IMG/VR virus record: IMGVR_UViG_3300038466_000067
Coordinates: 1-41,623 of that record
DNA length: 41,623 nt
Strand: one strand, 5' to 3'
Source of the DNA: a virus
Shown here: positions 2,078 to 38,226 of the stretch, piece after piece
Position numbering within the stretch: position 1 is the first letter of the stretch
How the letters are laid out: the number at the start of each line of letters is the position of its first letter
Position numbers and translations under genes: made by a program
Notes under the pieces: generated by a model
The model's database searches: none
What the model was told of the DNA's origin: nothing
The model's input: only the letters and a program-made list of their open reading frames with translations

Positions 2078-2165
2078 GCCTGGGTGGCGGAATTGGTAGA
2101 CGCAAGGGACTTAAAATCCCTCGGTCCTTGTGGCTGTACGAGTTCAATTCTCGTCCTAGGCACCA
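2078..2165 (+). tRNA. tRNA-Leu (anticodon UAA)
   Basis: The 88-base sequence folds as a class II tRNA with an encoded 3' CCA (2163-2165). The acceptor stem GCCTGGG pairs with CCTAGGC (one G-T pair) and the discriminator base is A. The anticodon stem AGGGA/TCCCT encloses the loop CTTAAAA with anticodon TAA. The long variable arm and the TTCAATTC T-loop are typical of tRNA-Leu. The tRNA reads UUA and UUG. Its 3' end faces the remnant of an integrase, which suggests it once served as an attachment site. Confidence 0.97.
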
Positions 2166-8880: not shown

Positions 8881-11319
8881 TCAGCTCTCTCCTAATAAAT
8901 CTTGCATGAGATATCGCAGGGATGAGTTTGATTTCAGAGCTTCCACCATAGGCGTGATTACGGCCGCCGGATTGCGTTTGCACACATCCGCAAAGCTCTG
9001 CGTATCGAGGCCCACTATAGTAAGATTGCCTATATGTATCCCGCCGCCGCCCGATCCGGCTAAACCCAGTTTGCCGTCCGCGCCTCTTTTTAAGGGCATG
9101 ATCGCTTCCGGCCCGGCCTCGCCCATGAGCCCGGCGCCGTTTGCCATCGGGAATACGGTAGGCCTGTTTACTATGCCGCCGAGCGCATATTTTACCAGAT
9201 GCCCGCCGTCAAAAACGTTGCCGTTCGCGCTTAGCAGCCAGTTGCCAATCAAAGACACGGCCGTGCCTACCAAGCCGCTTTTGCCCGATGTATCGGATTT
9301 GCCACCTCCGGCCACCCATGTTATGGCTTTTTGTATTTCTATTCTTATCAGGTCACGCACTATCGAATTGGTCAGCGACTTGAAGTCCGCCTTGCCGGTC
9401 ATTACAAAATCGGCCAGGGCGTCGGCGGCTCCGTTTATAGCCTTTTTTATCAGATCAAAACCTGCCCGGCCTGATTCTCCGGCCTCCTTTAACCATGATT
9501 CCCATCCGAGTTTCATGCCCCCAAATAAATTATCTCCTGAAAGGATGAGCTCTTCATCAAGTTTTTTCTTCTGTTCTGTATACCATTTGTCGGCTGCGAT
9601 TTTATTCCCTGTGTGCTGTTCGTGTATTTTGCGCTGTTCTTCAAGAGATTCAAGCATATATTGGTAATACCGACCCCGCTCGCCCTTCATGCCATCATAC
9701 ATTGTTCGATATGAATTTAGCCGGTTCTCTGAGTTGGCAATTTCTTCTTCCGCCAACTCATTGTTGAGCGAAAGAGCGTTCGTATGCTCAGCCTGCAAAA
9801 CGGTTTGTTTATATTCGGAGCTTTTTGTTAATTCATCCATTTCAGACTGACGATGCTCCATCTCCATCTTGTTAAACATAGCCGATGAGTCCATCATCAT
9901 GGCCGTCATTTTTTCATGCTGCGACCCTTCTTTGTCATAGTTTCTTAATGCATCAAACTCCGCGGCTTCAACTTCGGCGGCTTTCCGGGCTTTTTTAGCG
10001 TCTTTGTCCTCATCCGGCTTTGGCGTGTTTCCTTCCCATTTCGCATCTTTCTTCTGGCCGTTTTCTCTGTAATATCGCAGCTGCTGTTTTGTGAACTGAT
10101 CTTCCTCTCCGACCTCTGTCTGAAAATACTGATATTTCTTTTTCTCCTGGGGCGAGGCCGTAAGCAACTTTTTATTAAACTCCGGCGTCACGGGCTTCCA
10201 CCCATCAGACCGCAGAGCCATGTCCATCAATGCCTTTTCGGACCGCATATAGCGTTTTCGATACTCATCATTGGCCTTTGCCCATCGGTCACCGCCCCTG
10301 AGCTGCTCAAACGAAAGCTCATGCATAATTCCGGTAAAAGACCCGCCGATCTTATCCAGCAGCATCCCCAGCCGATAGACCTCGGCGATGACATTCCGCA
10401 CGCCGTCCCTGAAGGCGTTTATGCCATCAAGGAATTCAGGGTTCCATTTGATTTTCTTCGATTTATCGTCAATTGTGACAATGTAATCGGCTATAGATTT
10501 TAATTCTTCTTTCAGGGCGGCAAAAAGGGGCTCAAAGGCCTTCCCAAGCGATTGGTTTATGATGTCTTTGAAGTTCGACCAGAGTCCCGCCCAGGTTTTC
10601 TGCGACTCATCGCCTGCCGCACGATACGCGGCCAGCTTATCCATCAGGAAATTGAACAGGCCGTTGGCGTCCCCTTTGAATTTATTGATGTCTTCATTTC
10701 TCAAGCCCAGTACCGTAGCGATCCGGCTGGTCCTGGGGTCTATCGCGCCCGTCAGCAGAGAGCGCGTCTCCTCACTCAATTGATTCATCTGCAGTCCGAT
10801 GGCTCCGGCTGCCTGCACCATAGCAACCGTAAAATCCTTGACCTGCTGCCGGTTAAATCCTTTAGCAAGGGCGACAGGGAGCGTTACCTGATAAGCATTG
10901 ATCAATTCGTCGAGAGTGGCGATGGTCTGGAGGTTGGCATATTGCAAATCCTCGATGATTTTTTTCGAGTCTCCCTGGGCGGCTGTCAGCGCATCCTGTG
11001 CCGCCAGAGCTTTGCCGCTCGTAGCGTCTATGTATTTCCCGCCGGTCATGAATGCCGCTGCAATGCCGAGAGCAGAGGTCTCAATCTTAGCCAGGTAAGT
11101 GATGCCGGCGCTGGCTGCGGCTTGGATGGCTTTGAGTGCCGCGGCGACGGATACAAAAGATGCTGCCAGGCCCATGATGCTACCCGTCAAGTTCCGCGAT
11201 TTGGCGTTCAGTGTATCGGTGTCAACCTGGGAATCCTTGAGATGGCGCTTGAGACCGTTAAAAGCAGCATCCGTCTGGTTGATCGCCTCAATAATGAGTT
11301 TTATTTTCTGGTCAGTCAT
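8881..11319 (-). CDS. Tail tape measure protein
   Basis: An 812-residue protein that sets tail length and probably helps DNA cross the membrane. It has the usual composition: Ala- and Gly-rich helices, a hydrophobic block near residues 45-75 (GSIMGLAASFVSVAAAL), a lysine- and glutamate-rich coiled-coil region (about 420-560), and a C-terminal part with VSLIGNWLLSANG and MANGAGLMGEAGPEAIMPLK. That last motif is very common at the end of siphovirus tape measures. It lies directly after the frameshifting tail chaperone genes, the standard position. At about 2.4 kb it predicts a tail of roughly 120 nm by the usual ~1.5 Angstrom per residue rule. Confidence 0.93.
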   Translation of the reverse strand: MTDQKIKLIIEAINQTDAAFNGLKRHLKDSQVDTDTLNAKSRNLTGSIMGLAASFVSVAAALKAIQAAASAGITYLAKIETSALGIAAAFMTGGKYIDATSGKALAAQDALTAAQGDSKKIIEDLQYANLQTIATLDELINAYQVTLPVALAKGFNRQQVKDFTVAMVQAAGAIGLQMNQLSEETRSLLTGAIDPRTSRIATVLGLRNEDINKFKGDANGLFNFLMDKLAAYRAAGDESQKTWAGLWSNFKDIINQSLGKAFEPLFAALKEELKSIADYIVTIDDKSKKIKWNPEFLDGINAFRDGVRNVIAEVYRLGMLLDKIGGSFTGIMHELSFEQLRGGDRWAKANDEYRKRYMRSEKALMDMALRSDGWKPVTPEFNKKLLTASPQEKKKYQYFQTEVGEEDQFTKQQLRYYRENGQKKDAKWEGNTPKPDEDKDAKKARKAAEVEAAEFDALRNYDKEGSQHEKMTAMMMDSSAMFNKMEMEHRQSEMDELTKSSEYKQTVLQAEHTNALSLNNELAEEEIANSENRLNSYRTMYDGMKGERGRYYQYMLESLEEQRKIHEQHTGNKIAADKWYTEQKKKLDEELILSGDNLFGGMKLGWESWLKEAGESGRAGFDLIKKAINGAADALADFVMTGKADFKSLTNSIVRDLIRIEIQKAITWVAGGGKSDTSGKSGLVGTAVSLIGNWLLSANGNVFDGGHLVKYALGGIVNRPTVFPMANGAGLMGEAGPEAIMPLKRGADGKLGLAGSGGGGIHIGNLTIVGLDTQSFADVCKRNPAAVITPMVEALKSNSSLRYLMQDLLGES

Positions 11320-11322
11320 GGA

Positions 11323-11972
11323 TTATTTTGCCTTCCGGTCATCCCTGATCTCCTCAATTTTCCGATTGCAGTTTTTGCAGTCGTCTTTTTTCGCAGCTCT
11401 GCATGCTTTGCAGTATCTATCCTCTGCCGATGCTCCTTTAGGCTTACCGAAGAGGATTTTAACCCACTGATATCTCTGGCGCATTACCTCTTTTGCCCAC
11501 GCCTGAGCGTCCTCCAGGGTTACTGTCCAGGCAATTCTGTCCCGCTTGGTGATATCTCCGTTTGCGAGGATGACGCAAATCTCCGTGAACCAGTCGTCGC
11601 ATCCTCCGGAATCTTTTTCATCTGCCCGCCGATCCGCTCCACCATTTTCATTAGTTTTTCCGATATGGAGGAGATCGGGTTGATTAAAAAAAAATCGTCG
11701 ACAATCTCCAGCACTTGATCCGGTATAACGGCAAACTCGATTTCATCAGCCATTGCAGGGATATCTTTGCTCCGGAGAGACTTGCCTTCTTCCGCCAGGA
11801 CTATCGCCAGCGCGAGAGGCAGCTTGTCGCCCAGGATCATCACCAGCTCCAGGCTGCCCGCATCAGCCGGGATCATGACGCCTTTTAAAAGATCAAGAAG
11901 CTGCTTTACCTGGCCTAATACCAGAGGCTTCTGCGTGTACTTTTTTTCACCGATTATGTACGTTTTTTCCAT
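11323..11972 (-). CDS. Predicted -1 frameshift product of the tail assembly chaperone (gpGT-like)
   Basis: If ribosomes slip back one base on T TTT TTA (11691-11685), the first 96 residues of the gene starting at 11972 are joined to 120 residues from the -1 frame, giving a 216-residue protein ending at 11323. The -1 frame is open without a stop across the whole stretch and has no upstream start of its own until an internal ATG at 11484. Its C-terminus carries a clear CKAC...CKNC four-cysteine cluster, so it is probably a small zinc finger. The position between tail tube and tape measure genes is where lambda G/GT and its relatives use the same trick. The extended form would bind the tape measure, while the short form coats it. 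The frameshift is inferred from sequence only. Confidence 0.75.
11520..11972 (-). CDS. Tail assembly chaperone, unshifted form (gpG-like)
   Basis: A 150-residue protein placed between tail tube and tape measure genes. It begins MEKTYIIGEKKYTQKPLVLGQ, a typical start for tail assembly chaperones of this type, and has a helical middle (VKQLLDLLKGV, LALAIVLAEEGKSL). After the poly-T slippery stretch encoding DDFFL it continues 54 residues in frame 0 with a low-complexity Ser/Thr/Gly-rich end, which looks less protein-like than the alternative -1 frame. The start is preceded by the repeated leader with GGAG (see 11975-11995). Confidence 0.8.
   Translation of the reverse strand: MEKTYIIGEKKYTQKPLVLGQVKQLLDLLKGVMIPADAGSLELVMILGDKLPLALAIVLAEEGKSLRSKDIPAMADEIEFAVIPDQVLEIVDDFFLINPISSISEKLMKMVERIGGQMKKIPEDATTGSRRFASSSQTEISPSGTELPGQ
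11685..11691 (-). other. Slippery heptamer U UUU UUA for -1 frameshifting
   Basis: The minus strand has nine T in a row followed by A (11694-11685), read in frame 0 as GAT TTT TTT TTA. The last seven bases form T TTT TTA, one of the most efficient known -1 slippery sequences. Reading continues in an open -1 frame for 120 codons. Slippage of the polymerase on the nine-base run is an alternative mechanism. Confidence 0.75.
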
Positions 11973-11974
11973 TT

Positions 11975-11995
11975 TGTTTCGCTCCGCTCTTTTTA
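11975..11995 (-). promoter_or_regulatory. Repeated leader AAAGAGCGGAGCGAA (copy 1) with ribosome-binding site
   Basis: Just ahead of the ATG at 11972 the sense strand reads AAAAAGAGCGGAGCGAAACA. The GGAG inside is the Shine-Dalgarno site. Nearly the same leader precedes four other genes (starts at 15431, 32668, 33046, 35897), each time next to a heptamer repeat array. Confidence 0.75.
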
Positions 11996-12067
11996 GTGAA
12001 TAGTGACGGGTAAATAGTGACGAGAAAAAGCCTTTAGCCTGTCACTCGTCACTCGTTACTTGTCACT
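11995..12067. repeat. Heptamer inverted-repeat element, family A copy 1
   Basis: About 73 bp made of 7-bp units related to GTGACGA/GTGAATA in the left arm and their complements (CACTCGT, TACTTGT) in the right arm, around a short AAGCCTTTAGCC centre. The arms can pair imperfectly into a long stem. It fills the gap between the tail chaperone and tail tube genes. Copies occur at 13072-13144 and 33074-33138, and a half copy at 30232-30265. Confidence 0.85.
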
Positions 12068-12072
12068 TTTTT

Positions 12073-13044
12073 TTACCACGTCGCAATCGGGCTCAAAAGC
12101 ACGGCCCTTAAAGCCGATGCGTCCGCGTCGTCGTTGTAATATGCCTCGAAACCAAGCTCCACGAGAAGCCCTTTCGGGCCGGTTACGACCGGAGACATGG
12201 GTTTGAATATCAGCTCGTCCATGTAGAAACTGAGCTTTTCATTCCCTGCGGATGCTCCGGTTCCGGCGCCTTTTGTGAAGTGCAGCCAGAGAGATGTTTC
12301 CGTGTGGGCTATTGCGAGATCGTAAAGCGTTACGCTGTCGAAAAGACAGTTGATTTTGCCCGTAACCTTCGCAGCCCCTTCCCGCATGGAATAACGCTGT
12401 CCCGTGCTGTCCACCACGTAGGTGTCGCCGTCGAGACCGTTATCAAGGGCAACTTCTATGTCGGTCACTGTACCGAGCGATGCTCCGCCCTGCAGGACGG
12501 AGCCCTCCAGCCCGTCAAACGGCGTATGCCCATTGTCGGTCGCCGTGGCGTCATGCGTGGCCGCGCCCTCGGTCTCCTTTGCGCCTAAAATAGACACCGA
12601 GCAGGGGATAAACCCTTCGCCTTTTGCGGACAGTTTGAACTGGTTGACTTTGCATCCGTTGTACTGAAAATATTTGGCCGTCGCCAGATCTGTGAACTGC
12701 TTTTCGATCATCATCCCCACGGGAAGAGCGCCGATCTTATACGTATGGGTATAGGGCGCCGCACCGCCGGTTGTTACCAGCGACCCAAAAATATGCTTGA
12801 GCAGCCTCCCGTACTGTGGAGACAACTCGAAATTGATATCTCCGGCTACGTTTACGTTGCCGCGCGATGGGGCCTGCGGCTGGCGGCTCGTCCGGATTGT
12901 CTCGGATGAGTGCAGTGTCCGATCCAGCCGGAGGGACTCGGACGTGTACGGCAAAACCATGCCGTCCGGCGACACAGGAGCCGTCTTGTACGTGGTCTCC
13001 GTATCATAGATTATTTTTACATTTGCTCCGCTTTGCTGTGCCAT
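12073..13044 (-). CDS. Major tail tube protein
   Basis: A protein of about 323 residues, placed between tail terminator-type genes and the tail chaperone, with the features of large siphovirus tail tube subunits. It contains TETTYKTAPVSPDG near the N-terminus, RTLHSSETIRTSRQPQAPSR and GNVNVAGDINFELSPQYG, then VTDIEVALDNGLDGDTYVV in the second half; this layout is common in phage tail tube proteins of the TP901/GTA-like kind. The start at 13044 (MAQQSGANVK) is chosen because a perfect AGGAGG lies 10 bases upstream; the frame stays open further upstream but runs into the heptamer repeat, which is not coding. Confidence 0.85.
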   Translation of the reverse strand: MAQQSGANVKIIYDTETTYKTAPVSPDGMVLPYTSESLRLDRTLHSSETIRTSRQPQAPSRGNVNVAGDINFELSPQYGRLLKHIFGSLVTTGGAAPYTHTYKIGALPVGMMIEKQFTDLATAKYFQYNGCKVNQFKLSAKGEGFIPCSVSILGAKETEGAATHDATATDNGHTPFDGLEGSVLQGGASLGTVTDIEVALDNGLDGDTYVVDSTGQRYSMREGAAKVTGKINCLFDSVTLYDLAIAHTETSLWLHFTKGAGTGASAGNEKLSFYMDELIFKPMSPVVTGPKGLLVELGFEAYYNDDADASALRAVLLSPIATW

Positions 13045-13071
13045 TTTTCTATATCCTCCTTTTTTAAAATC

Positions 13072-13144
13072 AGTGACAAGTGACAAGTTACGAGTAACAG
13101 GTTAAAGGCTCTTTCTCGTCACTATTTACCCGTTACTATTCACT
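13072..13144. repeat. Heptamer inverted-repeat element, family A copy 2 (opposite orientation)
   Basis: The same element as at 11995-12067 but flipped: the CAGTGACAAGTGACAAGTTACG arm now comes first and the GTCACTATTTACCCGTTAC arm second (given in parts). It lies between the small gene 13126-13290 and the tail tube gene, and supplies the last codons of the small gene. The perfect ribosome-binding site of the tail tube gene starts right after it. Confidence 0.85.
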
Positions 13145-15431: not shown

Positions 15432-15510
15432 TCGCTCCGCTCTTTTTAGGGTTTAGGGGTTAGGGGTTAGGGTTTTCCTTGCCCCTTGACCCTATACCCT
15501 TGACCCTATC
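15431..15510. repeat. Family B heptamer inverted repeat (copy 1) with leader copy 2
   Basis: Sense-strand order: an array of GGGTCAA/GGGTATA units, a short AAGGAAAA centre, an array of CCCTAAC/CCCTAAA units, then the leader AAAAAGAGCGGAGCGA directly before the ATG at 15431. The two arms (15447-15470 and about 15481-15510) are imperfect inverted repeats. Confidence 0.85.
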
Positions 15511-16324
15511 TTTTCCCCGCCACATCCGTAAATTGTCTCGCTATCGCTGTATCTGTAAAGTTCCGTTTGCCGACCACGTCCGTAAACAACCGCGCTGCCG
15601 CGACGTCCACGAACTCAATGTTCAGAAAATAATACTCAGCAATGCCCGTAGCCACGCCCACTTGCACAATCAGCGTGTCAATCTGGCCGGCAGTCACATC
15701 GAGAATCGTAATATTCGCCCCGATCAATGCCGTTGCTATATCCGCATACGCCTGCAAATCGGCCAGGGTAATTTTCCCGCCTATGCTCTCCGCCAAAACT
15801 TCCCGATAACCCTGGAGATCGGTCTGGGTGACTTGCGCTCCGATCAGCGCGGTCAGTATCTCTACAAAGCCTTTGTCGTCAGTAACGGAAATTGTCGCGC
15901 CGATCAGCGCAGAAACCTCATCAAGATACTGCTGCCTGTCTGTAACAGACGCACCGGCGCCGATAATGGACTGAATAAGGTCCAGATATGCCTGCCGGTC
16001 GGTTACCGTTTCGGAGGCTCCAATGCGCTCCTGCAGCGCGTCAACATAGCCCTGTATGTCCGTGATGCTTCCAGCCGCGCCGATCAGCGTGGCCAGGATT
16101 TCAATTACGCCCTTATAGTCATCGACTGCTATACTCGCTCCGATCAGCGCAGAGACACTGTCCAGGTAATTCTGCCTGTCTGTAACTGATCCGGAAGCGC
16201 CGATCAGAGACTGAATCAGGTCCAGGTATGCCTGCCGGTCGGTTACCGTTTCCGAGGCTCCTATGTGCGCCAGCAACGAGTCATTAAATACCTGATCGGC
16301 AGTATCGAGCAGCAGATAACTCAT
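15506..16324 (-). CDS. Structural protein made of 20-residue tandem repeats
   Basis: A 272-residue protein with about ten tandem repeats of 20 residues, consensus IGAsxsVTDrQxYLDxvxaL (residues about 21-220). Units 1-4 and 5-8 are copies of each other: the unit IGASETVTDRQAYLDLIQS recurs exactly 80 residues apart, and the DNA shows the same 240-bp spacing (around 15990 and 16230). The C-terminus has shorter repeats containing FTDV (RLFTDVVGKR, RQFTDVAGKR). Such regular repeats suggest an elongated solenoid or coiled fibre. It lies in a row of four virion-type genes between head and tail, so it may be a head or neck fibre. Start and stop overlap neighbours by one to a few bases. No family was recognised. 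Confidence 0.65.
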   Translation of the reverse strand: MSYLLLDTADQVFNDSLLAHIGASETVTDRQAYLDLIQSLIGASGSVTDRQNYLDSVSALIGASIAVDDYKGVIEILATLIGAAGSITDIQGYVDALQERIGASETVTDRQAYLDLIQSIIGAGASVTDRQQYLDEVSALIGATISVTDDKGFVEILTALIGAQVTQTDLQGYREVLAESIGGKITLADLQAYADIATALIGANITILDVTAGQIDTLIVQVGVATGIAEYYFLNIEFVDVAAARLFTDVVGKRNFTDTAIARQFTDVAGKR

Positions 16325-18903: not shown

Positions 18904-18970
18904 TTAGGGTTTAGGGAGTTCCTATACCCTATACCCTTGCCCCTTGACCCTCAAAAGACCCTTGACCCTG
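18904..18970. repeat. Family B heptamer inverted repeat (copy 2)
   Basis: A GGGTTTA-type arm, a short centre and a long arm of CCCTATA, CCCTTGC and CCCTTGA units. The last 15 or so codons of the Wzy-like gene (residues KGLLRVKGQGYRV) are read from this repeat. Confidence 0.8.
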
Positions 18971-20073
18971 CCCTTTAGCGCTCTTCCCACCCACACACAC
19001 CCCAGCAGCGCTGTCGGCGCCACATGGAACGTATGAAAACCCGCAGCCGCCACGGCAGTCGCGGCAAGCCCGGACAGAGCTATTATTTCATGCTCAGTCA
19101 GAGATTCCCGTCGGTGCCATGCTCTACTGTACGTGGCCCCCAGGAAAACCAGTATGAGACCCAACGCCGGGATCCCGATTTCGAATCCAACCTGCAGGTA
19201 CTCGTTATGAGCATGTATAATCCATCCGCCGCCTGTTTTTTTTATCAGATCCGTATCGCTCATCACCATCACCGGGAAAAGCTGCTCAAACGAGCCTAAT
19301 CCCCGGCCGAACATTTCGGATCTGTATGACCAGACGGTATGTTTCCAGATATCCAGTCGCACCATGTCCTTTTTGCCCGGAGGATCAATCGTTATAAAAA
19401 AAATCAGCGCCGCCGCAAACATCGATATCAGCGTTATGGAGGCGCGTAACCGCCAGAGTTTCCTCGGCCCAAACAAGAGGTACACAAAGCAGGCTGCTAC
19501 TGCCGCCATAAAGCCTGTTGTAGATCTGCTTATCAATATTCCGGCGATAGGCAGCCCAAGAAGAGACACCCCCGGCAGGGAATGTTTACGCCACAGTGTT
19601 ATTTTTTCTGTGCTGAAAAACACCGGCAGACACATGGCGAAAAAGGCGCTCGCTTCGTTGATGTTAAATGGCCCCAGATTATTCAGAGCGGAAAGCGGCG
19701 GGAAATATCTTGTTAACCCCGCCAGTTGCATCAGCCCCCAAATAAGCAGCAAGCCGGCTGCCGCGGTCATGGCGTCGTATATATCCGCTTCCGCCGTATC
19801 CCGGAAGCCCTCAGTTGCAACCAGGAAAACGGCGATGGTCAGCAGCGTCAGATACGACGTGGCTATCGGCCCGTACCTCAGCACCGGTATCGTGCACAGG
19901 ACGAAAAACAGCCTCAGCCACCATGACCGCAGCAGGTGTGCCGTAAATACAGCCGCTGCCAGCCAGATGGAAACAAGCTGCCAGCTGAACCGGAGGCTGA
20001 TGCCCTGGGCCGGTATTATCCCAAGCATCAACCCCGGTATTGCTGTAATAAGTATGCGCTGATAAAGCGTCAT
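18922..20073 (-). CDS. O-antigen ligase/polymerase-like (Wzy/WaaL) membrane protein
   Basis: A protein of 383 residues with about ten hydrophobic segments. Before the last segments it has the conserved periplasmic-loop pattern of the Wzy_C family: DIWKHTVWSYRSEMFGRGLG followed by HAHNEYLQVGFEIGIPALGL. These proteins polymerise or attach O-antigen at the outer face of the inner membrane. The start at 20073 is chosen because ATG overlaps the stop of the exported decoration-like protein gene (TGATG), so the two are translationally coupled. A phage gene of this type suggests lysogenic conversion of the surface polysaccharide, perhaps to block rival phages. Its C-terminus reads into a repeat. The function is inferred from the family motif. 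Confidence 0.8.
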   Translation of the reverse strand: MTLYQRILITAIPGLMLGIIPAQGISLRFSWQLVSIWLAAAVFTAHLLRSWWLRLFFVLCTIPVLRYGPIATSYLTLLTIAVFLVATEGFRDTAEADIYDAMTAAAGLLLIWGLMQLAGLTRYFPPLSALNNLGPFNINEASAFFAMCLPVFFSTEKITLWRKHSLPGVSLLGLPIAGILISRSTTGFMAAVAACFVYLLFGPRKLWRLRASITLISMFAAALIFFITIDPPGKKDMVRLDIWKHTVWSYRSEMFGRGLGSFEQLFPVMVMSDTDLIKKTGGGWIIHAHNEYLQVGFEIGIPALGLILVFLGATYSRAWHRRESLTEHEIIALSGLAATAVAAAGFHTFHVAPTALLGCVWVGRALKGRVKGLLRVKGQGYRV

Positions 20074-20561
20074 CACCAGCTGCTTCCTGCTGACGGTGGC
20101 TCGGGATGAACATTGATAAAATATTTTGTGGATGTAGCCGTATCTGTAGTTCCGGGCAGTACCCACCCGATTATTTGATCATATCCGGTAGTGGCATAGG
20201 CATAACCCCCGGCGCCGGTCGATAAAAATAGTCGTGTGCCCGGAGATGCGGCTGCCTGGCCGTCCAATATCCCCATTACCACTATCTCAACCGTCGCATT
20301 CGTGGCGCCACCCTTGTCTATTACCCCTACAGCCGGACGTCTCGTAGAGCTGTCCGCATCCGCCTTATAAATTTGCCCGTCCGCCGCGGCGATACAAACT
20401 ACGTCGCCGATCGTGAGCGTTTCTCCGGCAACTCCTGAAAACCGGATAAATTTCTGCTGCCAGTTTTCGGTTGCATTTGCCGCCGGCATCGCAACCGCCA
20501 GCGCCAGAAACATCGCCAGCATCAATACCCCGATCTTTTTAAACCATCTGTTTTCCTGCAT
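20073..20561 (-). CDS. Exported decoration-like (head fibre/DUF2190-like) protein
   Basis: A 162-residue protein with a clear Sec signal peptide: basic start (MQENRWFKKIG), hydrophobic core (VLMLAMFLALAVA) and an Ala-x-Ala site (ANA, near residue 30). The mature part resembles phage head decoration proteins: GETLTIGDVVCIAAADGQIY, RRPAVGVIDKGG, then ASPGTRLFLSTGAGGYAYAT and QIIGWVLPGT. Capsid proteins do not normally carry export signals. Position directly after the capsid gene is the usual decoration site. Either the signal is a false positive or the protein is shown on the cell surface. The ribosome-binding site is an excellent AAGGAGG, and the gene is coupled to the Wzy-like gene. Confidence 0.7.
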   Translation of the reverse strand: MQENRWFKKIGVLMLAMFLALAVAMPAANATENWQQKFIRFSGVAGETLTIGDVVCIAAADGQIYKADADSSTRRPAVGVIDKGGATNATVEIVVMGILDGQAAASPGTRLFLSTGAGGYAYATTGYDQIIGWVLPGTTDTATSTKYFINVHPEPPSAGSSW

Positions 20562-20673: not shown

Positions 20674-23073
20674 TTAAGCCACTACCGCCTTGTAACCGCT
20701 CCGGCAGTCGATCGGCGTTCCTGCATACTCGTGCCTGATCTTCCACCGGATTTTGTCCGCCACAAATACCTGCTCCGATTGCGGCGAATCGGCCACGAAC
20801 AGCTCAGGCTCTTCCTTGCCGTTTAAATACCCCATCTCGACCATATCCATCACCGAGGGAGGCATAAGCAGGCCCCAGTCGTTCGCGTCTGTAAACAGCG
20901 AATTCATGAAACCGGCGATTTTGCCCTTCATAGGGTTCCGGGTTTTTGTAGTAAGATCGTTTGCCGAATAATAAAAATCGTCATTCACGATACTTTCCGC
21001 CATAGCGATCAGGTCTATCGGGTATACCAGCATCGGCTTTATGTCCGGAGACGAGAGCATTCCGAGCCGTTCTCCCGAATCTTTTTCCGTCATCTTGGCA
21101 AGCGCCTGGTATGCTATCAGCGCCGTTGAAAACCCCAGCGCTGTCGCCCCCAGGTTGCCGTGGCCGGCTGTAAACCATGCCGTTCCATCGCTGCATGTTG
21201 CATTGTTTATAAAGAAGCCCCACACGTACTTGCCGTGGGTTCTTTTTGCCGTCCGGCCAAGACCATCTACCAGCCTCGGTATAACGCTTTTATCGTCGTT
21301 GATGATGGTTTTTCGCGTTACCGTTAGAAGGTTTCCCTTCTGGAGCACGGTGTATGTGCTCTCTTCATCGGTTACGCCCGCGATTTCCACATAATCATTC
21401 ACTTCGGGATCAACCGTCGCAAGGTCAGGGAATCCGCCTACGAGCACCGCTTCCTGCTGTCTGAAATCCGTTACCGGCTTACGGATCGATATCAGAAGGT
21501 TTTCTCCGTAATCGGCAGCGCGATACTGCCGGACCATCCTGCGTCCCATCGTGTTGCCGAGCAGGTAAGAGAAGGTCGCGCTGTTGATGTCCATGCTCGA
21601 TCTCAAATCGGCAGGTAAGTTTTTGCGGTTAAAAACACCGCTTACCTGTTTGTCTCCGGTTAAAAATACGTACATCTCGCGGATGCCGGAGAAAGCGGGT
21701 ACCTTGTCGAAATCGGCATAATCCTGGACATTTCTCATGTCCTCGAAGAGCGGCTTGTGATCCAGTGTTTCCATTTTGGCAAACGCCTGAATATCGACTG
21801 CCGTCAGCCCGAACATTCTGTCAACCGCCATCTGCGCCCGCTCGATCGTGCCGATCCCCACGACAATCCCGGATGGTATACCCGCGCCATCGGCCGGCTT
21901 CGCGATTTTGGCCAGATAATCCTTTTCTCCCGCGACCGCTCTGTCGAGCTCGTCGGATGTGAAAACCTTACCCGCCATAGACGACCTGATCCTGTCTTTT
22001 GCCACGTCCGGCAGGTTGCTTTCTGCCAGCTTGTCTTTTACCGCCATCTCGCATCGCAGGGCTGCCAGATCGTCTTTTGTGGCCGATTTTGCGTCACCTG
22101 CTATAACCACGGCAGGTTTTTCAAGCTCCATTGCCATCCTTGCCAGCGTGTCCATTTCCGCGTCGGTAATTTTCTCAAATTCCTTCCCGACGAGGAGAGC
22201 CGGCCGTTTTTCATTTACCAGATCCCATAACTTTTTCTTCATGAGCTGCTCCTTTTCGTATTGAGCTGATTGCATTGATGCAACCGCCCTGTTGAATTTC
22301 CCGCCCGCGGCGGGCCTTGTTACGATATCGACCGAGTCAGCCGCCAGAAATTTGACGACTTTAAACACCGGTCTCCCCTCGATCACGTCCTTTGTTGCCC
22401 GTACCGGACAATCGTATGACAATCCGTAAACGGACTTCCCTGCCTGCATTGATGAAAGCAGGTTTTTCCCCAGCCATTTCGCGCTGTCCACAAAATGCAG
22501 GATGCCTTTTAAGCCTTTGCCGGCAACATGTTTTACGCCGTCTATCCAGCCGACCTTGTTTCTTACCAGCAGGCTTTTGATGTCAAAAAGAGGGTCCGGC
22601 AGATGTGTGGCGCCCTGCGGCATCTCGTATAAATTCACATCCACGTTATCAAAAAGACCCGCAGCGTCACGCACGGCATCGTCCGGGATGTACCAGCCGT
22701 TTTTTGTAAATCCGGACTCGCAGATGGTCACATCCCACGCGGTGCCTTCCGGATTCGCGGCCTCGCCGAGACGCATCAGCATTTCCACGCCCTCATCCGA
22801 TTCGGTCTGCTGGGATCTCATTTCCACCCATGTACGCTGCACTTCCACCGGCTCCTGTCCCAGGGTAACCGCGCCCTCCAAAATTGAGTATGCCACCCTG
22901 TAGCAGCGATCCTCTTTTTCGTAGATTACGTATGACGGATAAACCTCTCTCACCCACACGCCGTTCTCGCCTGTGCCGAATTTTTCCCTCACAGCGGCGG
23001 AAAGCAAGTCCCGTATCGTGTCCAGGCTGACCTCAGTATCCTGCTTGTCTCTTTTTGTGTTTTCGCCGGCCAT
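20674..23073 (-). CDS. Prohead protease / major capsid protein fusion
   Basis: A 799-residue protein that joins functions usually split over two genes. Residues about 1-260 look like a head maturation protease: DRCYRVAYSILEG, RTWVEMRSQQ, GLKGILHFVDSAKWLG and SVYGLSYDCPV. A helical scaffold-like stretch (about 270-400, rich in Lys, Glu and Ala) follows. The last ~380 residues are a capsid subunit: AVDRMFGLTAVDIQAFAK, NRKNLPADLRSSMDINSATF and LSSPDIKPMLVYPIDLIA. Fusions of this kind are known in some phages. The protein probably assembles, then the protease removes itself and the scaffold. A very strong GGAGGAGGGG site precedes the ATG at 23073. Confidence 0.82.
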   Translation of the reverse strand: MAGENTKRDKQDTEVSLDTIRDLLSAAVREKFGTGENGVWVREVYPSYVIYEKEDRCYRVAYSILEGAVTLGQEPVEVQRTWVEMRSQQTESDEGVEMLMRLGEAANPEGTAWDVTICESGFTKNGWYIPDDAVRDAAGLFDNVDVNLYEMPQGATHLPDPLFDIKSLLVRNKVGWIDGVKHVAGKGLKGILHFVDSAKWLGKNLLSSMQAGKSVYGLSYDCPVRATKDVIEGRPVFKVVKFLAADSVDIVTRPAAGGKFNRAVASMQSAQYEKEQLMKKKLWDLVNEKRPALLVGKEFEKITDAEMDTLARMAMELEKPAVVIAGDAKSATKDDLAALRCEMAVKDKLAESNLPDVAKDRIRSSMAGKVFTSDELDRAVAGEKDYLAKIAKPADGAGIPSGIVVGIGTIERAQMAVDRMFGLTAVDIQAFAKMETLDHKPLFEDMRNVQDYADFDKVPAFSGIREMYVFLTGDKQVSGVFNRKNLPADLRSSMDINSATFSYLLGNTMGRRMVRQYRAADYGENLLISIRKPVTDFRQQEAVLVGGFPDLATVDPEVNDYVEIAGVTDEESTYTVLQKGNLLTVTRKTIINDDKSVIPRLVDGLGRTAKRTHGKYVWGFFINNATCSDGTAWFTAGHGNLGATALGFSTALIAYQALAKMTEKDSGERLGMLSSPDIKPMLVYPIDLIAMAESIVNDDFYYSANDLTTKTRNPMKGKIAGFMNSLFTDANDWGLLMPPSVMDMVEMGYLNGKEEPELFVADSPQSEQVFVADKIRWKIRHEYAGTPIDCRSGYKAVVA

Positions 23074-23469: not shown

Positions 23470-23535
23470 TCCCGCCGTCAGGCGGCATTTAAAATTCTTT
23501 GCGTCCTTAGCGCCTTCGCGGTTCAAATTGTTTTT
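23470..23535. repeat. Family C repeat, copy 2
   Basis: CCGCCGTCAGGCGG hairpin, then TTTAAAATTC and TTTGCGTCCTTAGCGCC, TTCGCGGTTCAAATTG. It is almost identical to the copy at 23103-23168, 367 bp away, so the small gene in between is framed by direct repeats and could be lost by recombination. Confidence 0.87.
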
Positions 23536-24386
23536 CACCAATTAACCGCCTCATCCATCTTGGGCTCGTTTACGGCCGAATCCCAGTCCGCCCGATACGG
23601 CGCCATGTAGCAGCCGCAGTTAATCGTATTACGCGCCGATCCTGCCGGATCTCTCGGGTACATGAGCTGCTCGCCGCCGACATTAAATGGCTTGTCAACA
23701 TCCCGGATCTGTTTATCCGCAGCCACGTGTGCCAGCCTGGGAACCCGCCTCGGCGCTGTGCCGTATATCCACTGCTTTTGCAGCCCTTTTACAACCTTGC
23801 CTGCTTTTTCCAGCCGCGCCTGGCTTGCCGCCTCGAGCACCCGTCCGCACTCCGTCCGGGTGATCGTCTCCGCCCGGGCGGCTATCGATGTAAATATCGA
23901 TTTATCCTTGAGGTTTTTACCTACCGCCTGCATCACCTCATACGGCGTTTTTTGTCCCATCAAGCCCAGGGTAAGCTCGTTATTGATTTTAAGCGCCGCG
24001 TCTTTTGCCAGGCCCTTCACGAGATCCGCGCCGTAACCCTGCATAATGCCTAACACGGTCGTATCTATCTCCGGGATCAGCGCTTTCACCCCGACCGTCC
24101 GAAGCGGCATATCAACCGCGTCGATCCCGGTATTCCAGAATTCCAGCTGGGCATCCCGCAGATCCACTCCGTATTTAGTCCCAAATTCAGCCATTGCGCG
24201 TTCCACGGCGTCTTTCATCCGGGGCAGTTGGTAAGCCTGCCAGTCTGTTTCGGCCACGGCAGAAGCGATATCCCTGCGCGCAGAGGCCAAAAGCTTAATG
24301 ACTTTCTGCACTTCGGCGGCCTCAAGGTTCTGGGTGTTTTTGATCAGATCCCGAACCTTCTTCTGAAATCGCTGCTCTTTGGTCAT
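23535..24386 (-). CDS. Head morphogenesis protein (Mu gpF/gp30-like, SPP1 gp7 family)
   Basis: A 283-residue minor head protein of the SPP1 gp7/Mu gpF family, which binds portal and helps start head assembly. The N-terminal two thirds is helical; the conserved C-terminal part shows RAETITRTECGRVLEAAS, VPRLAHVAADKQIRDVDKPF, then GGEQLMYPRDPAGSARNTIN and CGCY. That last block (H..DG..., YP.DP.GSA.NTINCRC) is diagnostic. It lies directly after the portal gene. The stop TGA directly abuts a family C repeat. No strong ribosome-binding site is seen ahead of the ATG at 24386. Confidence 0.9.
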   Translation of the reverse strand: MTKEQRFQKKVRDLIKNTQNLEAAEVQKVIKLLASARRDIASAVAETDWQAYQLPRMKDAVERAMAEFGTKYGVDLRDAQLEFWNTGIDAVDMPLRTVGVKALIPEIDTTVLGIMQGYGADLVKGLAKDAALKINNELTLGLMGQKTPYEVMQAVGKNLKDKSIFTSIAARAETITRTECGRVLEAASQARLEKAGKVVKGLQKQWIYGTAPRRVPRLAHVAADKQIRDVDKPFNVGGEQLMYPRDPAGSARNTINCGCYMAPYRADWDSAVNEPKMDEAVNW

Positions 24387-34759: not shown

Positions 34760-35230
34760 CTATATGTTGCATTCAATTTTAAACCGATCCCGATCCGGTA
34801 TATGCCAAACGGCTTCCACGCCTATCCCGTTTGTGCGCGGCCTGCGGTATACCATCTGTACTAACCCGGCGCGTTTGAGGGCTCGCAAAATCTTATGCAC
34901 CCAGCCCGAATCCTGGACCCCCGCCAACCTCTGGACATCTGCCGCCACAAATGATCCGGACACATACATGGCTTTGTATATCCTTTTATTAAGGGAGCCC
35001 TTTTTGGCCTTCTTCCAGTCACGATTATATAAATATTGTCGCCGATTGTATTTCGTCACCGGGATCAATTCTTTGCGCCTGACACAGTCGCTGATTGCAG
35101 CGCTGATTCTGGCTCGCCCAATCTCTGGGAATGCCAGGCAAACCCTTTTTTTGTCGAATGCCTTGCTTTGCCCGGACATCCATTCCCGCAACCGTTTGGC
35201 CAGCCCTGTTTTAGGTATTTTTAATGACAT
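34760..35230 (-). CDS. Winged-helix DNA-binding-like phage protein
   Basis: A 156-residue basic protein that appears to contain two winged-helix-like units: AFPEIGRARISAAISDCVRR then KELIPVTKYNRRQYLY, and SGWVHKILRALKRAGLVQMV with YRRPRTNGIG. It lies after the MuB-like ATPase and overlaps its stop by 20 bases. Such proteins are common in the early region of transposable phages and may regulate transposition; the exact role is unknown. Confidence 0.65.
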   Translation of the reverse strand: MSLKIPKTGLAKRLREWMSGQSKAFDKKRVCLAFPEIGRARISAAISDCVRRKELIPVTKYNRRQYLYNRDWKKAKKGSLNKRIYKAMYVSGSFVAADVQRLAGVQDSGWVHKILRALKRAGLVQMVYRRPRTNGIGVEAVWHIPDRDRFKIECNI

Positions 35231-35897
35231 CTGCCACCATCTCCGGGATGATTTCTGTCAGTCCGCTCGCCTTCATGGCCCGCTCTATTCCAACAGCCAC
35301 GGTAAGCACCGGGCGCCAGTCGCCCTTTGAAAACTTGTGTATTTCTCCGGCTACGTCCGCAGAAACTACGGAGAGGGCCTGCTTGAAAAAAAAGGATATG
35401 TCCTGCTGCGTGATCGGAGTAAATTCCATCCGTCTGCGGATCCTGGAGGCGAGTCTCCGCCTTGAGGCTATTTTGCCCTTGAGAAGTTCCTCACCGATCA
35501 GAAGGACAGGGCAGGCATACCGCTCATTGACGTTACGAAGCATCTCCAGGTTATTCATAGCTAACAGATCCGCCTCGTCTATAATGATCAGCCTCCGGTG
35601 TTTGCCCATCTCGCTGCCGATTATTTCAAGGCATGCATCGGATCGGCCCGGTCGTGTGGATGCAAGCTCAAAGGCGATTTCCCTCAGTAGCATCGCGGGC
35701 GACCGTATGTTAAGCGGCGGGATATAGACAGCATCTGCGTTTACAGCAAAATGCCGGGCGGCTTCCGTTTTCCCTCTCCCGGCCTGTCCCGTAACCATTG
35801 CCATTGATGGCCCGACCATGCTCATCGGGTCCGACAGCTCGTTGCAGATCTCGTAAAACTTCCTGGTATTCGCAGTCTCAATAAATTCAGGTCTCAT
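35211..35897 (-). CDS. MuB-like AAA+ ATPase (transposition target selector)
   Basis: A 228-residue AAA+ ATPase. Walker A is GQAGRGKT (residues 37-44), Walker B is LIIIDEAD (near residue 100), followed by LEMLRNVNERYACPVLLIGE with the sensor 1 region and RLASRIRRRMEFTP with an arginine-rich box. The C-terminus is a small helical domain like that of MuB. MuB binds target DNA, stimulates MuA and provides target immunity. It follows the transposase gene. The start is preceded by a variant of the repeated GGAG leader. Confidence 0.92.
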   Translation of the reverse strand: MRPEFIETANTRKFYEICNELSDPMSMVGPSMAMVTGQAGRGKTEAARHFAVNADAVYIPPLNIRSPAMLLREIAFELASTRPGRSDACLEIIGSEMGKHRRLIIIDEADLLAMNNLEMLRNVNERYACPVLLIGEELLKGKIASRRRLASRIRRRMEFTPITQQDISFFFKQALSVVSADVAGEIHKFSKGDWRPVLTVAVGIERAMKASGLTEIIPEMVADVIKNT

Positions 35898-35973: not shown

Positions 35974-38208
35974 TTATTTATAGCTTCTCTCAAACTGCCA
36001 CCGGTCCCGCTCCGCAGGCGTCATTTCCGTCTCATGCTGTGCCGCGAAAAGCCTGTCTTCATCCGTTAATACGCCGCCGCATTTTTCGTACTCGAGTATC
36101 CAGAAATACCGGTCGCTTTCCCGCATGAAATAGCTGGGTCTTTCCGGCAGGGGTTTCTTCGATTTCAAGGGCAGGGGTGAACCGGCTTCCATCTTTTCTA
36201 TGTGGGCGTCGATCTCTTCCTGCGTTACAACCCGGTTTTGTGCTGTATTTTCGATTGCCCTCTGGCGTTTTTCCTCGCCGATAACCGCCACAACTCTTTC
36301 GAGTGCCGGGACCTCGGAATACTGCCGGAAATCCGGAATCGGCTTTGTAAGGCTGCGGAAACTCTCGGCGATCGCTTTGCGACGGCTGCGTTTTTCGTGA
36401 ATTTTTCTCGCCGCCAGATCCATATCCTTCATTGAAGAGTATTCCACAGGATGCGCTACGCAGACGTATTTGTTTCCCTGGAATACGAGCAGGGTATCGG
36501 CCTCAAGTGGATTGTAGCGGATGTTGACGCTCTGTTTGTGCAGATCTAACAGGGCGTCATGCTCATAGCGCTCGCCGTGAAACTCAATCCTTCCCATGTG
36601 TACAACCCGTTTTGATTTTGCCAGGAAAATCAGGTTCGCGGCTTCGTCAGAGATCCGGACCGGGCGCCATCCGGCTTCGTAACAAACTTTAAGACAGCCC
36701 AGAGGCGTGATCTGTTTCGGCTTCGGCAGCGGACATTCTTTATGCAGGCCCCTGTGATGTTTATCGCGGTTGTAATAATCGATCGCCCGGTAGAGCGCGA
36801 TGAAAAATTCAGAGGCAAGCGGCAACCTGCCTGAAATAGCCAGGCTTTTTGCCTCGGCCTGGTCTATGTCCTGGGCATGGATATCACCGTGCAGATCCTT
36901 GACATTACCCGGGAGCGCGAACCGGCTCCGTAAGATTCCCTCAAGATGATTGAACGTGCCCTCGATCATCTTGGCTTTGGCATTTTTTACCACCGCTTTC
37001 TTGTGGGTGCCCGGCATGATCACGCAGGGGTTCAAGTCTTCTGTGTCGGTATCGAGGATGTCCATCGGGTAATCGTCCGTGGTTTCCCATGCCATGCCGA
37101 GAGAGCGGATGTCGGCGAGTATCCCAGTGAGATACTTCGATAATTCGGGTTTGCCGTTGTCTGTGTAGATGCTCTTGAAGGCGCCGAACACGCGCATGCC
37201 TATGCGCAGGGCGAGGCCGATCAGATTTGCGTCATAATGTTTATCGAGAGCAGCACCGTAGATCATCCGGGTGCGCAAATCCTGCCAAAGATAACCTTCC
37301 GGGCGGAATACCTGGCCGGTCTCATCGTCGACAACCCAGAAATCGAAGCGATGCTGATCGCCGACAAGGATCTCAAAGGGAGCCAGGTCGGAATAATCCC
37401 GAAGCACCGGCGGGAGCATGTTATCAAGCGCCCGGGCGCCGCCGTCCCGGTATGCGATGTGAAGGGGAGAGGCTTTTTTGTCAAACCACCAGTTTGCGGA
37501 TTCATACCCGCCGATATTCCAGTCGCGCCGGTCGGATTCGACTATCAGGATATCGTACAGGTCTTTTCTGTTTATATGCCGGTGCTCGCGTTTCAGGCAA
37601 AGGCCCACCCAGAAGTCCACCGCCTCCGGAGTCCATTTGCGAGGCTCATTTTTATAGGATTTGGTATGCCGGATGCCGAAAATCCCCTTTTTTTCGTGCT
37701 TTGCTATCCATTTATATATAGTGGTCCAGTTGACACCGTGTTTTATGGCGACAGTTTCGAGCCATTTGCGCTTGCCCTTCGACCAGCTCCTCGGCATATC
37801 GTCCACATCGCGCAGGATCGCCATGATGCGCCGGATCCTCGGATTGCGGAGATCGTCTAAGGATATTGCTGTTTCGGGCGTCGGATCGTGACGTTTTTCG
37901 GCGAAAGCTTCTTCAAAAGAGGGAAAAGGCATCGGGGAGATAATGTCCAGGGCTTTTGAAGCCACGGAAGGAGAGAGGGCGGGGAGCATGTTTAGGGTTT
38001 CGGTCATGTTGCCTGTATCCTTATTATATAAGACGATGGAATTCTGGATGTCGGGAGGAAGGGCGGATTCGTCATTAAAGATTAATTGTTCGCCTCCATT
38101 GCCTTTTTTCGGTTTTCCGCCCCATCCGCCTTCACGCTTACACCGCCTCAAAAGGCTTCGTCGTGGTTTTTTTGTAATCTCCGATAACCGTTTCAGTGTG
38201 TATTTCAT
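35974..38208 (-). CDS. Mu A-like DDE transposase
   Basis: A 744-residue DDE recombinase with the MuA domain order. It has an N-terminal DNA-binding part (MKYTLKRLSEITKKPRRSLL), an HTH region near residue 160 (WTTIYKWIAK), the catalytic core with Asp in ILVGDQHRFD (near residue 284), Asp in YTDNGKPE (near 350) and Glu in GTFNHLEG (near 417), and a Mu-type C-terminal beta-barrel and basic helical tail. It cuts and joins the prophage ends. The ATG at 38208 has GAGGGG nine bases upstream; a TTG at 38217 is possible. Full length, so it looks active. Confidence 0.93.
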   Translation of the reverse strand: MKYTLKRLSEITKKPRRSLLRRCKREGGWGGKPKKGNGGEQLIFNDESALPPDIQNSIVLYNKDTGNMTETLNMLPALSPSVASKALDIISPMPFPSFEEAFAEKRHDPTPETAISLDDLRNPRIRRIMAILRDVDDMPRSWSKGKRKWLETVAIKHGVNWTTIYKWIAKHEKKGIFGIRHTKSYKNEPRKWTPEAVDFWVGLCLKREHRHINRKDLYDILIVESDRRDWNIGGYESANWWFDKKASPLHIAYRDGGARALDNMLPPVLRDYSDLAPFEILVGDQHRFDFWVVDDETGQVFRPEGYLWQDLRTRMIYGAALDKHYDANLIGLALRIGMRVFGAFKSIYTDNGKPELSKYLTGILADIRSLGMAWETTDDYPMDILDTDTEDLNPCVIMPGTHKKAVVKNAKAKMIEGTFNHLEGILRSRFALPGNVKDLHGDIHAQDIDQAEAKSLAISGRLPLASEFFIALYRAIDYYNRDKHHRGLHKECPLPKPKQITPLGCLKVCYEAGWRPVRISDEAANLIFLAKSKRVVHMGRIEFHGERYEHDALLDLHKQSVNIRYNPLEADTLLVFQGNKYVCVAHPVEYSSMKDMDLAARKIHEKRSRRKAIAESFRSLTKPIPDFRQYSEVPALERVVAVIGEEKRQRAIENTAQNRVVTQEEIDAHIEKMEAGSPLPLKSKKPLPERPSYFMRESDRYFWILEYEKCGGVLTDEDRLFAAQHETEMTPAERDRWQFERSYK

Positions 38209-38226
38209 TTGGATCAACCCCTCGAA

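Follow-up and report, generated by a model that had tools for sequence, protein, structure and literature searches.

A viral contig carries, between its tail tube and tape measure genes, a reading frame with a run of nine T in its middle, and this locus raises the question of whether one gene there yields two tail assembly chaperones through a programmed -1 frameshift. The window is the whole stretch analysed, 41,623 nt of IMG/VR record IMGVR_UViG_3300038466_000067, and the gene lies on its minus strand. We give a probability of about 0.92 to the reading that the gene makes two tail assembly chaperones by -1 slippage at U UUU UUN. A first-pass annotation made from the letters alone had read GAT TTT TTT TTA in frame 0 at 11696-11685, and these codons are there, with the nine T at 11694-11686. 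It had also described a -1 frame open for 120 codons up to the tape measure gene; re-read from 11685, this frame encodes 120 residues and ends in TAA at 11325-11323, three bases ahead of the tape-measure ATG (11319), and the frame-0 protein has 54 residues past the TTA of the slip region. The G/GT-like gene position that it assigned holds, since the gene lies between a tail-tube (PF18906) and a tape-measure (PF09718) gene. Among relatives, a tube homologue was found upstream of the chaperone gene in 44 of 79 loci, and an ORF of at least 300 codons directly follows the -1 stop in 68 of the 72 loci with enough flank; a homologue of the window's tape measure was found in just 34 of these 72 loci, which counts against the main reading. 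The gap between tube and chaperone genes (11975-12072) contains short direct and inverted repeats resembling GTGAC/GAGTGA, and the related locus L002 has different short repeats in the same place.

Table 1. Features of the chaperone locus and its neighbours, in window coordinates
Feature	Position	Strand	Basis
Tail tube protein gene, 5' neighbour	12073..13086	-	Pfam PF18906, E 6.8e-52; phrog_290
Frame-0 ORF, G-like chaperone, 150 aa	11520..11972	-	ORF list; third-position substitutions 27/50 before slip
G domain common to both products, residues 1-95	11688..11972	-	Profile in 137/137 sources; AF2; 2ob9
Internal Shine-Dalgarno-like GGAG, 11 nt before heptamer at 11694	11706..11709	-	Family anti-SD peak
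Nine-T slippery run	11686..11694	-	Heptamers T TTT TTT 11694-11688, T TTT TTA 11691-11685
Hairpin 5' arm, predicted	11665..11678	-	Fold in the window, -18.2 kcal/mol, z -2.27; 2/3 nulls
Hairpin 3' arm, predicted	11629..11642	-	Fold in the window
Frame-0-only helix, residues 100-119, predicted	11616..11675	-	AF2; conservation; 58/116 third-position changes
Frame-0-only disordered Ser/Thr-rich tail, predicted	11523..11615	-	AF2 pLDDT 62-65, almost structureless; variable end
-1 frame T-like part, stop 11325-11323	11323..11688	-	Relatives; open from slip site in 93/93 clusters
Most conserved T-part motif, NGDITKRD	11539..11562	-	Alignments A2, A4, A6
Four-cysteine cluster C-x2-C-x8-C-x2-C, possible zinc site	11368..11412	-	Sequence
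Tape measure gene, 3' neighbour	8881..11319	-	PF09718, E 6.7e-18; several tape-measure PHROGs

Relatives were gathered by scanning viral contigs and genome contigs, which gave 136 loci (L002-L137) and, with the window, 137 sources. Profiles of the G part and the T part were run on three-frame translations. Both halves were recognised in 134 of the 137 sources, and all 134 had the T part in the -1 frame relative to the G part, with neither an in-frame nor a +1 case. The other sources were L116, where the contig ends before the slip, and L136 and L137, in which the T part was not recognised and T TTT TTT is present with a 161-codon -1 frame. Loci L138-L142 agree with the -1 arrangement, and as L138 and L140 repeat L019 and L017 they add three further loci. 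Thirty identical copies were taken out before 104 non-identical loci were counted (L013 is the contig of L003), and single-linkage clustering at 85% nucleotide identity gave 93 clusters; because these clusters are still related to each other, the nulls used below overstate independence. The -1 frame of L014 is cut by a contig end, and 92 clusters have complete T parts. Alignment A7 was made without L026, which has a short frame-0 piece, and L014, and alignment A6 without L014.

A three-sequence T alignment found no match in the genome contigs, and a larger T alignment found 12 loci there. Searched singly, the frame-0 protein of the window had no match in viral contigs; tblastn against phages with the fused protein of the window, L080 and L088 returned none, and a plasmid search likewise returned none. 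A 34-residue tblastn match of L093 to a Cellulophaga portal (E 0.1) was taken as chance. One family member, L018, comes from a contig of 4.2 kb that was assigned to a Diapherotrites archaeon bin and is near-identical to the viral contig L051; the contig is probably misbinned.

Nine-base homopolymers are error-prone in sequencing. The window has a single nine-T run, and a sequencing or assembly error might have turned eight or ten T, a length at which the frames fuse, into nine. Because all 134 sources show the -1 relation, the arrangement cannot stem from a sequencing indel; fused frames, the outcome by which the first-pass annotation would have withdrawn its proposal, occur in 0 of 134, and the run is six T long in 76 of the 93 clusters. 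For the family, the error explanation is refuted, and we consider its probability negligible.

The slip site was examined in the same loci. T TTT TTN stands in the frame-0 register in all 104 non-identical loci (TTTTTTC in 74, TTTTTTT in 22, and TTTTTTG in 8), and because no locus was ever dropped for want of a heptamer, this conservation is not a selection artefact. Each of the 93 clusters has TTT as its P-site codon, and the A-site codon is TTC (69), TTT (17), or TTG (7); the base before the P codon is T in all 93, even where its codon is GGT, CAT, or AAT. Ahead of the site, these genes encode Phe by TTT 129 times and by TTC 105 times, and Asp by GAT 282 times and by GAC 229 times. The window contains two overlapping heptamers, of which T TTT TTT (11694-11688) is homologous to the site of the relatives. 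Since most relatives carry the upstream heptamer only, comparison suggests that this was probably the ancestral slip site. The U UUU UUA site named at first is therefore present, but the conserved T TTT TTN lies one codon upstream of it; in the window, either T TTT TTT or T TTT TTA may work for slippage. According to a section of PMC5009743, slippage in E. coli is lower on U UUU UUA or U UUU UUU than on A AAA AAG, a point against the main reading.

A run of this length also brings RNA polymerase into question. Homopolymers of about eight or more are described, in part of PMC3711429, as typical polymerase slip sites, and nine T are present in both the window and L002; a U added or dropped by the polymerase would let the T part be read normally without any ribosomal shift. 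However, nine T occur in 4 of 93 clusters, the prevailing six-T run is followed by another base, and the anti-SD element upstream of the heptamer would act on ribosomes. These results make transcriptional slippage an unlikely source of the T part, although it could add to the shifting in the window.

The -1 frame is kept open from the heptamer onward. No -1 stop was found in the first 18 codons past the heptamer in any of the 93 clusters, compared with about 56 of 93 clusters having a stop within those codons after synonymous frame-0 resampling (least 45 in 100 resamplings); in codons -23 to -5 before the heptamer, 62 of 93 clusters have a -1 stop. Substitutions were then compared by codon position. 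Between the window and L002, 27 of 50 changes upstream of the slip fall at frame-0 third positions, and 26 of 46 changes past the frame-0 stop fall at -1-frame third positions. In 19 independent pairs, frame-0 third positions take 645 of 1134 changes upstream of the slip and 58 of 116 in the first 12 codons past it; further on, 170 of 394 changes ahead of the frame-0 stop, and 435 of 802 beyond it, fall at the -1 wobble position. Over the 12 codons past the slip, frame-0 conservation was 0.380 compared with 0.179 (maximum 0.196) expected from the -1 protein alone, and conservation of the -1 protein was 0.316 compared with its own expectation of 0.202 (maximum 0.215), with both excesses inflated by shared ancestry. 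As far as substitution patterns tell, the comparison shows both frames to be under selection.

Because frame-0 constraint persists for some 12 codons beyond the T run (third positions 58/116), the real slip might instead occur later in the gene, with G GAA AAA (11661-11655) as one candidate, and GGAAAAA is common to the window, L002, and L003. This motif is not conserved in the wider set (alignment A5), however, and -1 stops are missing from the heptamer onward, not from 12 codons later. A downstream slip is thus highly unlikely, and the slip at the conserved heptamer is retained. Past this heptamer, the frame-0 tail is 23-82 codons long (median 55 in 93 clusters). It had been described as low-complexity, which fits its second half, but its first 12-18 codons are selected and predicted to be helical. 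In the AlphaFold2 (AF2) model, the first 31 residues of the T part are unstructured. Frame-0 conservation, the AF2 helix, and the unstructured T start together suggest that, over the overlap, frame 0 encodes a helix and the -1 frame a linker. The Ser/Thr-rich remainder of the tail would be mostly a frame-0 shadow of the conserved GDITKRD stretch in the -1 frame.

Upstream of the heptamer, the family's strongest pairing with the 3' end of 16S rRNA lies 15 to 8 nt ahead of it. Anti-SD pairing of -6 kcal/mol or better was found in 63 of 93 clusters, compared with a mean of 26.5 and a maximum of 39 in 200 synonymous resamplings, and pairing of -4 kcal/mol or better in 70 of 93, compared with a mean of 37 and a maximum of 49. 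At five upstream control positions, 6 to 38 clusters had -6 kcal/mol pairing. In 79 of 93 clusters, the wobble base 12 nt ahead of the heptamer is a G. Pairing of -4 kcal/mol or better is missing in 23 of 93 clusters, which counts against the element. Its spacing of about 10 nt is inside the dnaX-type -1 range, 9-14 nt being given for stimulatory SD sequences in parts of PMC5009743 and PMC3711429. As a putative stimulator, the SD-like element is well supported at the level of sequence.

An SD-like element ahead of an open frame would also suit two overlapping genes, with the T part started on its own in the -1 frame, and ATG (6 clusters) or TTG (5 clusters) is found at -1-frame offset 9. No start is conserved, however: 82 of 93 clusters have none at offset 9, and 5-12 nt past the SD core the one candidate is a TTG within or ending the heptamer, in 7 of 93. 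An invariant heptamer would, moreover, stay unexplained, and we regard independent initiation of the T part as very improbable.

Downstream of the heptamer, the evidence for -1 stimulation comes from predicted folding. Windows of 60 nt starting 0-13 nt from the heptamer start had a mean z of -1.4 to -1.7 against dinucleotide shuffles, compared with -0.35 to +0.22 at control starts of -120 to -30, +25, and +40, and -0.24 to -0.80 at control starts of +70 to +160. With frame-0-preserving resamplings as the null, the fold z at the heptamer was -1.3 to -1.5; with a null preserving the -1 protein, no excess folding was observed (z -0.14 to -0.03), the neighbours at +25 and +40 still being higher. 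A shared 13-pair hairpin had 57.4% of cells paired, compared with 33-46% when slid, and its covariation is modest, being reached by 12 of 500 shuffles. RNAalifold predicted no consensus hairpin for the family, and the downstream fold of L002 is ordinary (z -0.51). An Rfam scan returned a tRNA alone. Taken together, the fold predictions, in which two of the three nulls support a hairpin, make it a likely but less certain stimulator than the SD-like element.

The structure of the frame-0 protein was predicted, with a pLDDT of about 90-97 across residues 1-90. The best solved structure for this model was the HK97 tail assembly chaperone 2ob9 (Z 4.7, next 3.0; rmsd 3.8 over 80 residues), a Z that the tool's own note calls weak, and the best BFVD entry was a 'Tail assembly chaperone' (E 4.1e-3, TM 0.36). 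The G part of the window had no family match in Pfam or PHROGs; phrog_7947, which has no name, was matched weakly by 6 of 91 G parts (best 0.0027), and a PDB sequence search gave nothing significant. With single-sequence targets, hhalign gave a probability below 1% each for lambda G, HK97 gp13, and D3112 orf42, and no sequence similarity was found to these proteins or to lambda T. Gene order, the -1 shift, and the best fold match, weak as it is, point to a G/GT-type pair.

The T part is 98-149 codons long in the 92 complete clusters, and its conservation peaks at GDITKRDxILW. The window's -1 frame, for which the first-pass annotation had looked to tail chaperone families, has no trustworthy match in Pfam, PHROGs, or NCBIfam; isolated matches of single family members, among them PdxJ (4.4e-5, Pfam) and ThiC (1.3e-4, NCBIfam), were taken as chance. 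Because neither part has a trustworthy match in Pfam or PHROGs, nor the T part in NCBIfam, annotation misses the T half. The T model had a pLDDT of 74.8, and a fold search with it gave no PDB match with a Z of 2 or more (2 chains compared) and a best viral E of 0.37.

Near its end, the window's T part reads CKAC-x8-CKNC (11412-11368). The pattern C-x2-C-n-C-x2-C was found in 47 of 92 complete T parts (the window and 46 others), other layouts with at least three cysteines in 36, and none in 9. Pfam zinc-ribbon matches were weak, in 2 of 14 members (best 4.5e-4). The zinc finger first proposed for the end of the T part is borne out as to its four cysteines, but 9 of 92 T parts go without, and zinc is read from the cysteines alone. 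Since the pattern is common across T parts, zinc binding is likely in most members, and the cluster may be dispensable in some. The cysteine-free T parts are those of L020, L021, L026, L056, L061, L077, L091, L109, and L125; several of them carry a DEEY..S motif instead, and the nine are natural cases in which the putative zinc module is lost or exchanged.

Compared with known systems, the locus shares its gene order, -1 shift, and two chaperones with lambda G/GT and HK97 gp13/gp14. In lambda the slip occurs at GGGAAAG, 5 codons short of the stop, in contrast to the median of 55 codons in the window family; a 30:1 ratio and the roles of G and T are described for lambda in parts of PMC5009743. 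According to a portion of PMC10885494, the mean distance from shift to stop is 26 nt for one set and 36 for a second. D3112 orf42 and JBD30 gp45 likewise belong to Mu-like phages and lie between the major tail protein and the tape measure, and, as in the window family, their slip heptamer lies within the gene: we found T TTT TTC in both, at a stretch reading G-F-F. Their slip lies 42 (D3112) and 36 (JBD30) codons ahead of the frame-0 stop, and the frame-0 tail is Ser-rich; the -1 part, at 85-86 codons, is shorter than here and has no cysteine cluster. Pseudomonas phages of the D3112/PaMx73/JBD30 type have no detectable sequence similarity to the window family. For PaMx73, a T TTT TTC shift 43 codons before the stop was proposed (in part of PMC4378225). 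For SPP1 gp17.5/gp17.5*, a putative -1 shift at UUUUUUC is given, with 112 shared residues, products of 173 and 297 aa, and the tape measure gene next, in the sections of PMC6316719 that treat it; these do not discuss an upstream element or a hairpin for the shift. The mid-gene U-run slip of SPP1 17.5 is likened to the present one on the basis of this description. Because SPP1 and PaMx73/D3112 provide precedents, a mid-gene slip is known, and the long private frame-0 tail, first taken as unusual, was already in print, to judge from these excerpts. The E. coli dnaX cassette, as described in parts of PMC5009743 and PMC3711429, combines an upstream SD, a homopolymeric heptamer, and a downstream stem-loop; here, by contrast, the run is of U and not A, the hairpin shape is not conserved, and the product is extended and not truncated.

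The wider window encodes a Mu transposase (35974-38217), an AAA (MuB-like) protein (35211-35897), and a Mu F homologue (23535-24386). These genes mark it as a Mu-like transposable phage, whose tail module (DUF2460, gp84-like hub, NlpC/P60) resembles that of siphoviruses. A tRNA-Leu with anticodon TAA lies at 2078-2165 (+), near one end of the window and on the strand opposite the phage genes, and may be a sign of flanking host DNA or of an insertion site. The idea of a phage tRNA-Leu(UAA) serving the TTA codon was dropped, with no tRNA in 30 related loci scanned. Between the capsid and neck/tail genes, a Wzy_C/O-antigen ligase family protein (18922-20166) is possible surface-modification cargo. 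The 799-aa protein at 20674-23073 has its capsid domain confined to the C-terminal part (residues 498-795), and its long N-terminal part may be a fused protease or scaffold. The 272-aa ORF at 15506-16324 is built of repeated 'LIGA...VTDRQ.YLD' units.

The programmed -1 shift with two products, as first proposed, is supported by conservation over 93 divergent clusters and by gene order. Comparison establishes, as patterns in aligned genes, the -1 arrangement, the site, the upstream element, the two-frame selection, and the gene position. Most ribosomes would stay in frame 0 and make a G-like protein, in which a globular domain at the N terminus is followed by a short helix towards the C terminus and by a loose tail. 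A minority would slip one base back at U UUU UUN, with the SD-like element upstream holding the ribosome during the slip and the hairpin ahead probably pausing it. The slipped ribosomes would make a GT-like fusion, in which a flexible linker joins the globular domain to a helical T domain that usually ends in the cluster of four cysteines, probably a zinc binder. The lambda pair suggests that the G part would coat the tape measure protein, with the tube protein recruited by the T part. Slippage as such and its frequency, the part played by the hairpin, the binding of metal, and the partners assigned to the two parts are our inferences.

The main survey of tail-chaperone frameshifts is reportedly that of Xu, Hendrix and Duda 2004. 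That survey aside, neither a zinc cluster nor an SD stimulator at a tail-chaperone shift was found in the literature searched, as represented by portions of its papers. What is new here, within the known G/GT system, is an unnamed family, a composite signal, and a cysteine-bearing T part. Somewhat short of even odds, we suggest a large family of environmental-phage chaperones with a full dnaX-like cassette (SD, U6 heptamer, and hairpin) for the G/GT switch, in which 12-18 codons would encode both a selected helix and the linker to a zinc-binding, tube-recruiting domain. The 93 divergent clusters let the frameshift signal of a tail chaperone be read by comparison. They include, upstream of the slip, a putative ribosome-pairing element of a kind not found described for tail chaperones in those portions of the literature, and they show that the part of the unshifted protein past the slip can be under selection.
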